Below are positions 15,828 to 20,211 of a stretch of 64,000 bases of DNA, piece after piece. A program made the translations under genes and the position numbers. Numbering within the stretch: the first letter of the stretch is position 1; each line of letters opens with the position of its first letter. The notes under the pieces were generated by a model that was not told where the DNA came from, did no database searches, and worked only from the letters and a program-made list of their open reading frames with translations. Source of the DNA: Dokdonia pacifica (GTDB lineage: Bacteria > Bacteroidota > Bacteroidia > Flavobacteriales > Flavobacteriaceae); the NCBI RefSeq assembly GCF_900188275.1, contig NZ_FZNY01000001.1, positions 992,001-1,056,000 of the forward strand. The letters are read 5' to 3'.

Positions 15828-17078
15828 ATGAACGTTTTAGGGTCATCAGAATTTTATGTCATCGGACTTAGCTATAAAAAAGCTGATGCCGAAGTACGTG
15901 GACATTTTAGTGTTTCTGAAGAAGCACAGGAACAAATCCTATCAAATGCAAAAGCATCTGGGGTAGAAGCACTCACTGTAATCTCTACCTGTAACAGAAC
16001 TGAACTGTATGGTTTTGCACAAAACCCTTCACAATTAATACAACTCCTTTGTAAGTATACACAAGGTAATGTAGAAGAGTTTGAAAAAGTATCCTACATC
16101 CATGAAAGTGATGATGCTATTCAGCATTTATTTAAAGTAGGAACAGGTCTTGACAGCCAAATACTAGGAGATTTTGAAATCATAGGACAGCTAAAGGTTG
16201 GGTTTAAAAAAGCAAAAACACATGATTTAGTCAATCCATTTATGGAACGATTAATTAATAGTGTGATTCAGGCCAGTAAGCGCATTAAGACAGAAACAGA
16301 AATTTCTTCGGGAGCTACTTCAGTAAGCTTTGCTGCTGTACAATATATCATGGCTCGCGTGCCTTATGTTTCTGAGAAAAACATTTTACTTTTCGGAACT
16401 GGAAAAATAGGACGTAACACTTGTGAAAATCTTATTAAGCATACTAAAAATGAACACATCACACTCATAAATCGCACCAAAGAAAAAGCGCAGAAAATAG
16501 CAGGAAAATTCAATTTACTTGTGAAGGATTATGCAGATATTCAAAGTGAGATTTCACAAACAGATGTATTAGTTGTTGCTACCGGAGCCCAAAATCCTAC
16601 CATTACTAAAGAGCTTATTTATACTAAAAAACCATTACTTATACTTGATTTATCTATTCCAAAAAATGTAGCAAGTAATGTCACAGATTTAGAAAACGTA
16701 ACACTTATTCATCTAGATCAACTTTCTAAAATGACAGATGACACATTAAAGCGTCGTCAACAATACATTCCTAAAGCAGAGGCTATTATAGCACAAATCA
16801 CAAAAGAATTTAAAGCTTGGTTATCTACAAGAGCATTTGCCCCTACGATTCAAGCATTAAAATCAAAATTGAATGATATAAGTGCTTTAGAGCTAAATAA
16901 TCACCGTAAGAAAATAGACAGCTTCAATGAAGATCAAGCACATTTAATTTCTGATCGCCTTATCCAGAAGATCACTAATAGATTTGCAAATCATTTACGT
17001 AATGCTAATGGCACTACAGAACAAAGCATTGAACTTATAAAAGCTATTTTTGAACTAGAACAATCAGACAGTGAATAG
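15828..17078 (+). CDS. hemA: Glutamyl-tRNA reductase
   Basis: A 416-residue HemA, which reduces glutamyl-tRNA to glutamate-1-semialdehyde with NADPH and commits carbon to tetrapyrroles by the C5 route. The catalytic cysteine lies in TVISTCNRTELYGF; the activator loop LGDFEIIGQLKVGFKKA and the NADPH-binding FGTGKIGRNTCENL follow; a helical dimerisation domain fills the last 100 residues (STRAFAPTIQALK). It opens the main heme operon; the hemC GTG start overlaps its stop by 8 bp, implying coupled translation. hemL, the next enzyme, is not in the window. Confidence 0.97.
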   Translation: MNVLGSSEFYVIGLSYKKADAEVRGHFSVSEEAQEQILSNAKASGVEALTVISTCNRTELYGFAQNPSQLIQLLCKYTQGNVEEFEKVSYIHESDDAIQHLFKVGTGLDSQILGDFEIIGQLKVGFKKAKTHDLVNPFMERLINSVIQASKRIKTETEISSGATSVSFAAVQYIMARVPYVSEKNILLFGTGKIGRNTCENLIKHTKNEHITLINRTKEKAQKIAGKFNLLVKDYADIQSEISQTDVLVVATGAQNPTITKELIYTKKPLLILDLSIPKNVASNVTDLENVTLIHLDQLSKMTDDTLKRRQQYIPKAEAIIAQITKEFKAWLSTRAFAPTIQALKSKLNDISALELNNHRKKIDSFNEDQAHLISDRLIQKITNRFANHLRNANGTTEQSIELIKAIFELEQSDSE

Positions 17079-17988
17079 AGTCATACGCATCGGGACTCGT
17101 GATAGTGAGCTCGCATTATGGCAAGCAACCACCGTACAGAAACAACTTGAACATCACGGTTATAAAACAGAACTAGTGCCCGTAAAATCTACTGGAGATC
17201 TTGTACTAGACAAACCTTTATACGAATTAGGAATTACAGGAATTTTCACCAAAACCCTTGATGTAGCTATGCTTAATGGCACTGTAGATATTGCCGTGCA
17301 TAGTATGAAAGATGTTCCTACTGCACTTCCTATAGGTATTGTACAAGCAGCTGTTTTAGAGAGAGCCGCTACTCAAGATTTATTAGTACACAAAGGGACT
17401 CCTGATTATACACAAGACTGTATCATTGCAACAGGAAGTCTTCGTCGTCAAGCACAATGGCTTAACAAGTATCCACATCACCAAACAACAGATTTACGAG
17501 GTAATGTAAATACACGACTCCAAAAATTAGATGATAGTGATTGGACCGGGGCTATTTTCGCGAAAGCGGGATTAGAACGTATTAATATCCTTCCATCTAA
17601 TTACGAAGTATTAGACTGGATGACACCAGCGCCAGCACAAGGAGCTATGCTTATTGTTGCCTTAGAAAATGATGATTTTTCTAAAACCGCTTGCGCGAAA
17701 TTAAACCATGAAGCAACCGCTTTGTGTACCCATATAGAAAGAGAATTTTTACGAACCCTAGAAGGAGGTTGTACCGCACCTATAGGAGCTATTGCTAATA
17801 TAAAAGAAGAAACTATTCACTTTACCGGTGTTTTATTTTCACTAGATGGCAAGACAAAATTAGAGGTCAATCAGTCTGTTTCTGTATCACATAGTCAAGG
17901 ATTTGGTGTAGACTGTGCTTTAGAGATATTAGATAATGGTGGTCGTGAACTCATGAAAGAGATTAAAGCATCTATTAATAAGAAATAA
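17071..17988 (+). CDS. hemC: Hydroxymethylbilane synthase (porphobilinogen deaminase)
   Basis: A 305-residue HemC that joins four porphobilinogens into hydroxymethylbilane. The start is a GTG at 17071 overlapping the hemA stop. The opening RIGTRDSELALWQA, the substrate-binding arginines in SLRRQAQW and LRGNVNTRLQKLD, and the dipyrromethane cofactor cysteine in TLEGGCTAPIGA are all intact. Palindrome at 17556-17565, read as IFAKAG, and a near-copy at 17689-17700, read as ACAK. The gene ends only 45 bp before the DUF559 ORF and 5 bp before the left inverted repeat. Confidence 0.97.
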   Translation: MNRVIRIGTRDSELALWQATTVQKQLEHHGYKTELVPVKSTGDLVLDKPLYELGITGIFTKTLDVAMLNGTVDIAVHSMKDVPTALPIGIVQAAVLERAATQDLLVHKGTPDYTQDCIIATGSLRRQAQWLNKYPHHQTTDLRGNVNTRLQKLDDSDWTGAIFAKAGLERINILPSNYEVLDWMTPAPAQGAMLIVALENDDFSKTACAKLNHEATALCTHIEREFLRTLEGGCTAPIGAIANIKEETIHFTGVLFSLDGKTKLEVNQSVSVSHSQGFGVDCALEILDNGGRELMKEIKASINKK

Positions 17989-17992
17989 AATG

Positions 17993-18026
17993 CCCTCATC
18001 CCTAACCCTTCTCCCACTGAGATGGG
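17993..18026. repeat. Left inverted repeat of the DUF559 element
   Basis: The run CCCTCATCCCTAACCCTTCT and following bases at 17993-18026 read, on the opposite strand, as GGGAGAAGG then GGGATGAGGG. This matches the repeat at 18383-18418 in inverted orientation. It starts 5 bp after the hemC stop. Confidence 0.8.
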
Positions 18027-18032
18027 AAAATT

Positions 18033-19082
18033 ATGAAGAAGATTTCTAAGAAAAATATTGCCAGACATCTCAGACAGGAACAAACACCTGCCGAGGAACA
18101 TCTATGGCAATTACTAAGAAATAGACAATTTGAAGATCTTAAATTTAGAAGACAACACCCTATAAAAAAATATATCGTTGATTTTTGCTGTCTAGAAATT
18201 ATGTTAGTTATTGAGCTTGATGGAGCATATCACAATGATAACTATCAAAAAGAAAAAGATGACCTAAGAGACGCTCATTTAAGAGGTTTAGGATATCGAG
18301 TATTACGCTATCCTAATAAAATAGCACTTGAAAACACTCAAATTATTTATGATGATATTCTTAAAAGAAAAGAAGAGTCAACTCCTTCTCTCTTGAGGGA
18401 GAAGGCTGGGATGAGGGTGCTATCCACAAAAAAACTAAAACCTAACCAGCGAGAATTACTTCTTAATGCGGGTGTGAGTTTTGTGGAATATGATGCTATC
18501 TCTATTGCACCTATTGATTTTGAGATTCCAGAAGAAATAGAAAATATTATCATTACAAGTCAAAACGGAGCAAAATTCTTTATAAACAAACTTAAAACGC
18601 TACCTCTCCTTGAGGAGAAGGCTGAGGCGAGGTATTTTGCAGTTGGAGAAAAAACAACAGCACTTCTAGAAGAAAACAACTATAAAGTAGCCAAAACAGC
18701 TCAAAATGGAGCAGAATTAGGGCATTTTATAGTAAAAAACCACAAAAATGGGCATTTCACCTATTTCTGCGGAAAACAACGTAGAGATGAATTACCCACT
18801 ATTTTAAAAGAGGCCGCTATTTTGTGTAACGAAATTGTGACTTATGAAACTCATCTTAATGAGCAGTCATTTATTCAGAAGTTTGATGGGATTTTATTCT
18901 ATAGTCCTAGTGCTGTATCCGCTTTCGCGAAAGCGAATAAAATAAATAAAGCTTTTTGCATTGGTAATACCACAGCAACAGAAGCAAGAAAATATACAGA
19001 TCAAGTAATTGTATCTAATGCAACAACCATAGAGAGTACCATTGCAAAAGCTGTAAATACATTAAAAAAATTGACTAGTTAA
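18033..19082 (+). CDS. hemD: DUF559 endonuclease-like domain in frame with uroporphyrinogen-III synthase
   Basis: One 349-residue open frame joins two unrelated parts. Residues 1-126 are a DUF559 domain (QTPAEEHLWQLLRNRQF, KFRRQHPI, then D50, E61 and D63 in YIVDFCCLEIMLVIELDGAYH), a Vsr-like nuclease fold. Residues 127-349 are HemD, which closes hydroxymethylbilane to uroporphyrinogen III: MRVLSTKKLKPNQRELLLNAG, IITSQNGA, FAVGEKT, FFCGKQRRDELP in outline, GILFYSPSAVSAF, CIGNTTATEA. HemD normally starts near LSTKKL, so the ATG at 18411, inside the right repeat, is probably its true start, giving 223 residues. An in-frame repeat copy adds about 11 residues (TLPLLEEKAEA). Palindrome at 18923-18932. 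Whether a fused protein is made is unknown. Confidence 0.88.
   Translation: MKKISKKNIARHLRQEQTPAEEHLWQLLRNRQFEDLKFRRQHPIKKYIVDFCCLEIMLVIELDGAYHNDNYQKEKDDLRDAHLRGLGYRVLRYPNKIALENTQIIYDDILKRKEESTPSLLREKAGMRVLSTKKLKPNQRELLLNAGVSFVEYDAISIAPIDFEIPEEIENIIITSQNGAKFFINKLKTLPLLEEKAEARYFAVGEKTTALLEENNYKVAKTAQNGAELGHFIVKNHKNGHFTYFCGKQRRDELPTILKEAAILCNEIVTYETHLNEQSFIQKFDGILFYSPSAVSAFAKANKINKAFCIGNTTATEARKYTDQVIVSNATTIESTIAKAVNTLKKLTS
18383..18418. repeat. Right inverted repeat of the DUF559 element
   Basis: Reads TCTCTTGAGGGAGAAGG then CTGGGATGAGGG. It mirrors the left copy at 17993-18026. It encodes LLREKAGMR in the open frame and holds the ATG (18411) that is the likely hemD start. Confidence 0.8.
18601..18634. 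repeat. Third copy of the repeat, inserted in frame inside hemD
   Basis: CTCTCCTTGAGGAGAAGG followed by CTGAGGCGAGG matches the right repeat closely (one gap and a few substitutions). It is translated as PLLEEKAEARY, parallel to SLLREKAGMRV in the right repeat. It keeps the hemD frame. Confidence 0.75.
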
Positions 19083-19099
19083 GTTTAACAAAACAAACA

Positions 19100-19171
19100 T
19101 GTCCCCTCGAGCGCAGTCGAGAGGACAATAAATAGAATATTATTTTAGTTCTCGACTGCGCTCGAACAGAC
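19100..19171. repeat. Pair of REP-like GAGCGCAGTCGA palindromic repeats
   Basis: Copy 1, 19100-19127, is TGTCC, then CTCGAGCGCAGTCGAG, then AGGACA, with self-complementary ends. Copy 2, 19148-19171, carries CTCGACTGCGCTCGA in the opposite orientation. They lie about 20 bp apart between hemD and hemE. Similar CTCGACTGCGCTCGA units occur in many Bacteroidota genomes as intergenic REP-type repeats. They may fold into one cruciform or mRNA hairpin in the operon. Confidence 0.75.
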
Positions 19172-19179
19172 AAAATGCT

Positions 19180-20211
19180 ATGAGCACACTGAAAAACGAT
19201 TTATTTTTAAGGGCCTTAAATGGAGAAACTGTAGAGCGTCCTCCTGTATGGATGATGCGTCAAGCTGGAAGATATCTTCCTGAGTTTATGGAAATCAAAG
19301 CCAAGTATGATTTCTTTACACGCTGCCAAACTCCTGAATTAGCTAGTGAAATTACGGTACAACCCATACGTCGTTATGGAATGGACGCCGCTATTTTATT
19401 TTCTGATATTCTAGTGATCCCACAAGCCATGAATATTGATGTAGAAATGAAACCAAACATAGGGCCTTGGTTACCTAATCCTATTCGATCTGCAAAAGAT
19501 GTAGAACAGGTGATTGTTCCAGATATTCAGGAGACATTAGGATATGTAATGGATGCTATCAAAATGACCAAAGAAAAACTCAATGATGAAATCCCATTGA
19601 TTGGTTTTGCTGGAAGTCCGTGGACAATCCTTTGCTATTGTGTACAAGGGCAGGGTTCAAAAAACTTTGATAAAGCTAAAGAGTTTTGTTTTACACAACC
19701 ATTGGCTGCTCATACATTATTACAAAAAATTACAGATACCACCATTGCGTATCTTAAAGAAAAAGTTAAAGCAGGTGTAAATGCCGTACAAGTATTTGAT
19801 AGCTGGGGAGGCATGCTCTCTCCTGAAGATTATCAAACATTTTCATGGCAATACATCCAGCAAATTATAGATGCGCTTAAAGAAGAATCTCCAGTAATTG
19901 CTTTTGGAAAAGGATGCTGGTTTGCTCTAGACACGATGGCAAAATCTGGCGCATCGGCATTAGGTGTAGATTGGACCGTAAGTGCTCGTAATGCACGTTA
20001 TTTAACAGGTGGAAATATTACATTACAAGGTAATTTTGATCCAACCCGATTATTTTCACCTCCTAACGAAATCAAACGCATGGTTACTGAGATGATTCGC
20101 GCCTTTGGAAAAGACAAATACATTGTAAACTTAGGACATGGTATTTTACCAAATGTGCCATTAGAAAATGCTGGTGCCTTTATAGAAGCTGTAAAAGAGT
20201 ACAAAGAATAG
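19180..20211 (+). CDS. hemE: Uroporphyrinogen decarboxylase
   Basis: A 343-residue HemE, decarboxylating the four acetate side chains of uroporphyrinogen III to give coproporphyrinogen III. The N-terminal signature [17 protein letters not shown] is intact, with the catalytic aspartate in [14 protein letters not shown], and [12 protein letters not shown] and [11 protein letters not shown] follow. It is soluble and dimeric in the family. The upstream 98 bp hold two REP-like repeats and no obvious promoter, so it is probably read through from hemA. The next ORF starts 1 bp after its stop. Confidence 0.97.

Follow-up and report, generated by a model that had tools for sequence, protein, structure and literature searches.

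A DUF559 nuclease domain between inverted BoxC/PIT-like repeats, in frame with hemD of Dokdonia pacifica: a probable resident mobile unit

The hemC–DUF559–hemD locus

In the window (the whole 64,000-nucleotide stretch of Dokdonia pacifica DNA analysed here), hemC (porphobilinogen deaminase; 17071-17988, + strand, assigned by Pfam with its start codon taken from a mechanical ORF list) is followed on the same strand by a single open frame, 18033-19082, whose 349 residues span a DUF559 domain and HemD without an intervening stop. Pfam places DUF559 (PF04480) at residues 6-112 (E 5e-35; positions 18048-18368) and HEM4/HemD at residues 141-337 (E 4e-31), with two weaker matches over the DUF559 part to nuclease or unknown-function families and no intein in the frame. 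The DUF559 part (18033-18382, +), a Vsr-like PD-(D/E)XK nuclease domain according to the ORF, Pfam, AlphaFold and Foldseek, lies between two repeats on the + strand. The left repeat (17993-18026, delimited by eye) begins 4 bp downstream of the hemC stop at 17988 and consists of a tail, CCCTCATCC(CTAA), and then an imperfect hairpin; the right repeat (18383-18418, identified by eye, by genome pattern search and by motif scan) consists of a hairpin and then the tail GGATGAGGG. Both tails point outward from DUF559. The pairing of CCCTCATCCCTAACCCTTCTCCC (from 17993) with GGGAGAAGGCTGGGATGAGGG (to 18417), across a small gap, was found by eye, the pair being absent from the listing of an ungapped repeat finder.

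The repeats have a BoxC/PIT-like anatomy, with one pyrimidine and one purine arm and a third strand that runs antiparallel to the latter. A hairpin with a matching third strand, as in BoxC/PIT, was found in the right repeat, where the triplex-motif scan detected a 34-base motif of the intrastrand-triplex type at 18384-18417, the sole one in the window; the imperfect hairpin of the left repeat failed that scan. An ATG within the right repeat (18411-18413, +) is in frame with hemD (uroporphyrinogen-III synthase; 18411-19082, +, by ORF and Pfam) and could serve as a separate HemD start. An earlier note on this DNA had described a DUF559 frame bounded by inverted repeats, continuing without a stop into HemD and with a candidate hemD start inside the right repeat, and the ORF, the Pfam matches and the repeats as seen by eye bear this description out.

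A second, solo repeat-like stretch lies in frame within HemD at 18604-18632 (+), with counterparts in the relatives G012, G013 and G015 and none in G002 or in five other relatives compared. These solo repeat-like inserts, all in frame, occupy two loops of HemD; the second loop carries one in G015 and none in its close relative D. pacifica. Another palindromic repeat, of the CGAGCGCAGTCGAG type, stands at 19100-19172 between hemD and hemE. An Rfam search of 17000-19400 returned no known RNA family. In a named collection the best-matching locus belongs to an uncultured Dokdonia and is 80% identical across the segment matched.

We compared the hemC–hemD region, as the earlier note had proposed, in 18 genomes of the genus including the source genome (G000), with hemC found in all 18 and the sequence downstream of it read in each. 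The unit is patchy: 13 genomes have hemC–hemD without it, and five (G000, G002, G012, G013, G015) have DUF559 before hemD, consistent with the positions of DUF559 matches in these genomes. HemD of several empty relatives (e.g. G004, G007, G014) begins M-T-V-L-S-T-K-K-L, while translation from ATG 18411 in D. pacifica gives M-R-V-L-S-T-K-K-L, and the unit therefore appears to have entered at the start of hemD. The reading frame from DUF559 into HemD is preserved in all five genomes that carry the unit. An ATG ahead of the left repeat of G015 is in frame through the repeat, DUF559 and HemD; the corresponding repeat of G000, G012 and G013 is not in that frame. The repeats vary between species and retain their hairpin-plus-tail form, the left repeat being arranged in the same way in G012, G013 and G015.

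Association of DUF559 genes with BoxC/PIT-type repeats

The earlier note had stated that DUF559 genes are widely found next to such repeats, and a survey agreed with it. We scanned the 250-bp flanks of 187 distinct DUF559 genes for the triplex motif, with controls drawn from their own loci; the flank surveys left out duplicate domains, any copy with under 250 bp available on either side and any containing N. The motif was present on both sides of 82 of the 187 genes, from many phyla, versus none of 561 control positions, and on either side of 118 versus 16 of 561. Shuffled flanks of the same genes gave 0/187. Some of the surveyed regions had been picked for their long frames, so the shares of fused genes in this survey are not frequencies. 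Inverted repeats between the flanks, at a score of at least 28, were found for 121 of the 187 genes and for 8 of 932 same-locus control positions; mismatched pairs of flanks reached this score in 54 of 560 cases, since repeats are alike from genome to genome. In a named cross-phylum set, whose titles include Bacteroidota, Chloroflexota, Pseudomonadota, cyanobacteria, Nitrospira and candidate phyla, 56 of 69 DUF559 genes passed the inverted-repeat test and 56 of 69, not necessarily the same genes, passed the triplex test. Among free-standing DUF559 genes of the Bacteroidota set, the triplex motif was found in just 16 of 43.

The repeat also occurs away from the nuclease. Its right-hand core has 12 matches in the D. 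pacifica genome including its own (none with the reversed pattern), and the 11 outside the unit answer the search for further copies that the earlier note had suggested. All but one of the 12 lie outside open frames of at least 100 aa. All 12 end in GGATGAGGG, which was a fixed part of the search pattern, and carry no GTAG or CGTC end tag. Across the genus the core of the hemD-unit repeat was matched 12 times in G000, 20 in G012, 15 in G013 and 11 in G015, and in none of the 14 other genomes. All four of these genomes carry this lineage of the hemD-unit nuclease; they also form one clade, so this association of repeat and nuclease may be ancestry. The hemD-unit repeat of G002 gave few matches, which were not specific to that genome, and the co-occurrence was not replicated there. 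A repeat of the type that bounds LeuRS inserts is likewise present in G002, G012 and G013, genomes in which we saw no insert in LeuRS (the G012 gene being covered only in part). Within 17 genomes, the left and right repeats of one unit matched each other (score of at least 28) in 24 of 41 cases, against 6 of 70 for different units of the same genome. Similarity of the nucleases at unrelated sites correlated with similarity of their repeats (partial r 0.245, p 0.001, 1262 pairs), a correlation to which shared ancestry may add.

One possible explanation for these patterns is that the repeats are spread by another agent, such as another transposase or replication slippage, and that DUF559 units are passengers that arise where two repeats happen to flank a nuclease gene. 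We regard this as rather unlikely: nuclease and repeat co-vary, their association spans many phyla in both tests of the cross-phylum set, and a search confined to the Y1/RAYT transposase (PF01797) found none in D. pacifica, the family being present in 5 of 14 control genomes. Its attraction lies in the excess of solo repeats over units in D. pacifica, in the 66 of 187 DUF559 genes that fall under the inverted-repeat threshold of 28, and in the G002 repeat that is not dispersed.

We also considered whether the repeats are specially free of stops and preadapted to landing in frame, and rejected the idea, as the share of open frames was 0.66 both in the repeats and in their mononucleotide shuffles, against 0.61 for random stretches. 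Nor was support found for the idea that free-standing units read through their own repeats, with 6 of 44 doing so through the 3′ repeat.

DUF559 inside other genes

Hosts that contain DUF559 in frame or are fused to it include LeuRS, MetH, RecG, HisD, HemF, HisF, UvrD, HrpA, Lhr and restriction enzymes. Among the matches listed for 199 Flavobacteriaceae genomes (E ≤ 1e-20), 34 of 102 lie in frames longer than 200 aa by a hand count. In seven chosen frames Pfam placed the domain inside LeuRS (at two sites), MetH (in two genera), RecG or HsdR, or downstream of histidinol dehydrogenase. In nine chosen frames it precedes HisF, RNase H, HemF or a PLP-dependent enzyme that we read as threonine dehydratase, or lies within methylmalonyl-CoA mutase, either of two UvrD helicases, or enzymes of the Eco57I and ISP types. 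In the cross-phylum material, all ten frames checked, chosen from 31, combine DUF559 with another Pfam family: HsdM-type methylase (twice), an Eco57I-type enzyme, an HrpA-like helicase, LeuRS, two class I synthetases (ValRS in our reading), MmeI, Lhr and a Mur-ligase family protein (FolC in our reading). Phages were considered as carriers and set aside, with a DUF559 match in just 2 of 50,697 phage records.

Lineages of the domain are largely bound to their host sites. On a quick tree of 71 labelled rows, with host labels assigned by hand and spot-checked with Pfam, the host site changes 16 times, where 11 is the least possible and shuffled labels average 46.2 with none of 200 shuffles as low. 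The HemD, MetH, RecG, HemF and mutase inserts need one change each, and the MetH group spans several families. Sites are mixed in the restriction-enzyme group (HsdM, ISP), two of whose rows come from Pseudomonadota; six changes are required for the LeuRS inserts.

Movement and decay of LeuRS units

A LeuRS insert is present in five of the 18 genus genomes and absent from 11, with no call in two. Between G015 and G017 the insert is identical at 402 of 408 bases (98.5%), and its flanks are 87.0 and 88.1% identical; at a difference rate of 12.5%, the binomial probability of such insert identity is 1e-16. Identity drops no more than about 10 bp from the outer ends of the repeats. The leuS flanks of G015 are closest to those of D. 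pacifica (92.7 and 91.6%), whose site is empty with a plain loop. The unit alone therefore passed into the G015 line, and these comparisons document one interspecies movement of a DUF559 unit with edges near its repeats. No other clear recent transfer was seen in the 306 pairs whose flanks are related, the next close pair (L046/L054) having 95.0% in the core versus 85.1 and 88.7% in the flanks. By eye we saw no target-site duplication at hemD or leuS; the insertions are old, and about six codons were replaced at the LeuRS site.

LeuRS of G130 and G019 (L152 and L154) retains the insert without the RRQH and DGxxH motifs. In shorter windows their inverted-repeat scores are 15 and 16, against 26 and 23 for two intact inserts, both of which also lie under the threshold of 28. 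The loss of nuclease motifs together with the lower repeat scores points to decay in place. These two DUF559-derived domains may be exapted relics.

Other insertions were observed in LeuRS and HemC. Palindromes of the CGAGCGCAGTCGAG type, in frame and 7-8 codons long, occupy a LeuRS loop of G013, G002 and G009 (L265, L269, L270), the very loop used elsewhere by DUF559 units, and in HemC of G010 (L031) a palindrome of the CCTCCCCAACCCCTCC type accompanies an extra stretch of about 10 codons that keeps the frame. A further DUF559 copy of D. pacifica (L009, G000:C21:787884-788186) lies about 3 kb downstream of leuS with its frame broken by one TAA.

Selection on the hemD unit

In the six pairs of G000, G012, G013 and G015, dN/dS is 0.10-0.14 for the DUF559 part and 0.15-0.24 for HemD, and dS of the DUF559 part is similar to that of hemC and hemD; pairs involving G002 were mostly saturated. 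These sequence comparisons indicate that the hemD copy of the unit is old, vertically inherited and under purifying selection. The earlier note had held that a mobile origin would fail if all close relatives carried the fused protein, with the DUF559 part under protein-level selection and with no homologs of the repeats elsewhere. Of these, selection was found; fusion in all relatives and a lack of repeat homologs were not.

Such values, with HemD the less constrained part, together with the matching dS and the frame intact in all five carriers, would also be expected if DUF559 had been domesticated and now served a function within HemD (as within LeuRS, MetH and other hosts), inherited vertically, with the repeats left as linker relics. 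This account must face the absence of the unit from 13 of 18 genomes, the presence of the same domain in unrelated hosts and the horizontal gain in LeuRS. Selection on the nuclease, moreover, is equally expected of an element that spreads itself. We therefore consider domestication unlikely.

The nuclease fold

Across 66 rows the invariant residues of DUF559 are E21, Q41, D50, E61, D63 and H67. The AlphaFold model of the domain has a pLDDT of 90. In a Foldseek search with this model, the predicted fold ranked first with 3hrl, a solved DUF559 protein, and then with the homing endonuclease I-Bth0305I, which we take to belong to the EDxHD family; Vsr ranked lower. I-Bth0305I was the best match outside DUF559 (E 1.2e-4, TM 0.73 by target), which suggests a nuclease fold in common with this Vsr-like homing endonuclease.

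That DUF559 is a Vsr-like repair enzyme positioned to protect unstable triplex repeats is suggested by the relation to Vsr (Foldseek; available text of PMC1189080) and by the Caulobacter DUF559 protein VsrA, described in the available text of PMC12907096 as a predicted mismatch-repair endonuclease on which scmA mutants depend for their DNA damage response, but it would leave in-frame insertion into housekeeping genes, site-bound lineages and horizontal gain unexplained, and we judge it very improbable.

Comparison with known elements

Knowledge of BoxC/PIT repeats dates from the 1990s. According to the available text of a 2015 survey, this intrastrand-triplex motif occurs in E. coli and more than 260 genomes as dispersed intergenic copies (PMC4666352). 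The DUF559 repeats resemble it in their pyrimidine arm, purine arm and antiparallel third strand and in their dispersed intergenic copies; unlike in that survey, whose authors state in the text available that they never found mobility genes near the motif, a nuclease here lies between two repeats. The main text of PMC4666352 never mentions nuclease, endonuclease or DUF, and among open-access papers, with bioRxiv preprints outside the search, we found no link of DUF559 to BoxC/PIT-type repeats.

Terminal inverted repeats are a feature that the unit shares with insertion sequences and MITEs. REP/RAYT systems combine an HUH/Y1 transposase with a GTAG or CGTC tag at the end of the repeat. The DUF559 unit is like these systems (REPINs) in having a gene between inverted palindromic repeats and dispersed solo copies in the same genome, but its protein is a PD-(D/E)XK nuclease and not HUH/Y1, the tag is absent and the unit resides inside genes. 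Rickettsia palindromic elements likewise place palindromic sequence in frame in unrelated metabolic genes; in the available account they are about 150 bp long and encode a peptide (PMC10969869), whereas the DUF559 unit encodes a full nuclease domain of about 110 residues.

Many homing endonucleases, although not all, are housed in a self-splicing intron or intein. DUF559 resembles homing endonucleases in having one site per lineage, a patchy distribution, horizontal gain at an empty site (with one clear transfer) and decay in place. It differs in that no intron or intein was found here, in that the unit remains in the protein and in its repeat ends, and the one LeuRS case shows no co-conversion of flanks beyond about 10 bp.

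A probable resident minimal mobile element

The idea of the earlier note that a small mobile unit landed between hemC and hemD gains support from the 13 empty relatives, from the repeats elsewhere in the genome and from the interspecies movement of a like unit in LeuRS. We consider it probable that the locus holds an old, resident minimal mobile element, a DUF559 nuclease between inverted BoxC/PIT-type repeats, which entered the hemD start and has been inherited vertically since, with homing-like spread as the general mode of such units. The entry would have taken place in an ancestor of this Dokdonia clade, with vertical inheritance thereafter within the hem operon. DUF559-HemD is most likely translated as a fusion, although an internal start at ATG 18411 is possible. 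The element would reside, in frame, in permissive places of genes; its spread would be mostly to the same site in another lineage and rarely to new sites, with later decay in place. The nuclease may recognise its own end repeats, probably as a hairpin or triplex, and may cut at these ends, at the empty target or at both, and repair would copy the unit. The same nuclease activity could seed the solo repeats.

The presence of relatives of the unit inside many housekeeping genes across bacteria suggests a mobile element of a kind not yet described, and with it a candidate mover of the repeats. Whether DUF559 proteins are the mobilisers of BoxC/PIT triplex repeats across bacteria, and whether the two jointly form a class of mobile elements that lacks an intron or intein, is translated in frame inside essential proteins and homes between lineages there, we put at even chances. 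If so, LeuRS, HemD, MetH and similar enzymes can harbour selfish nucleases that are not spliced out, which matters for annotation, for protein evolution and for understanding what the widespread DUF559 family does.

With a nuclease between two BoxC/PIT-type repeats in many phyla, the spread of the repeats becomes testable, also in E. coli K-12, whose DUF559 gene is ycjD. A 950-base query that contains ycjD is covered to 80% or more in 3361 of 5426 E. coli genomes. We found no clean empty site, and three E. coli strains without ycjD carry efflux genes there (cf. the available text of PMC12817139). BoxC-type repeats lie close downstream of ycjD, in K-12 too. Upstream, in the sapF-ycjD-fabI region of K-12 (L251), ycjD is preceded by a near-perfect palindrome of another kind (CACCTCATTCTGACAA...), unlike BoxC.
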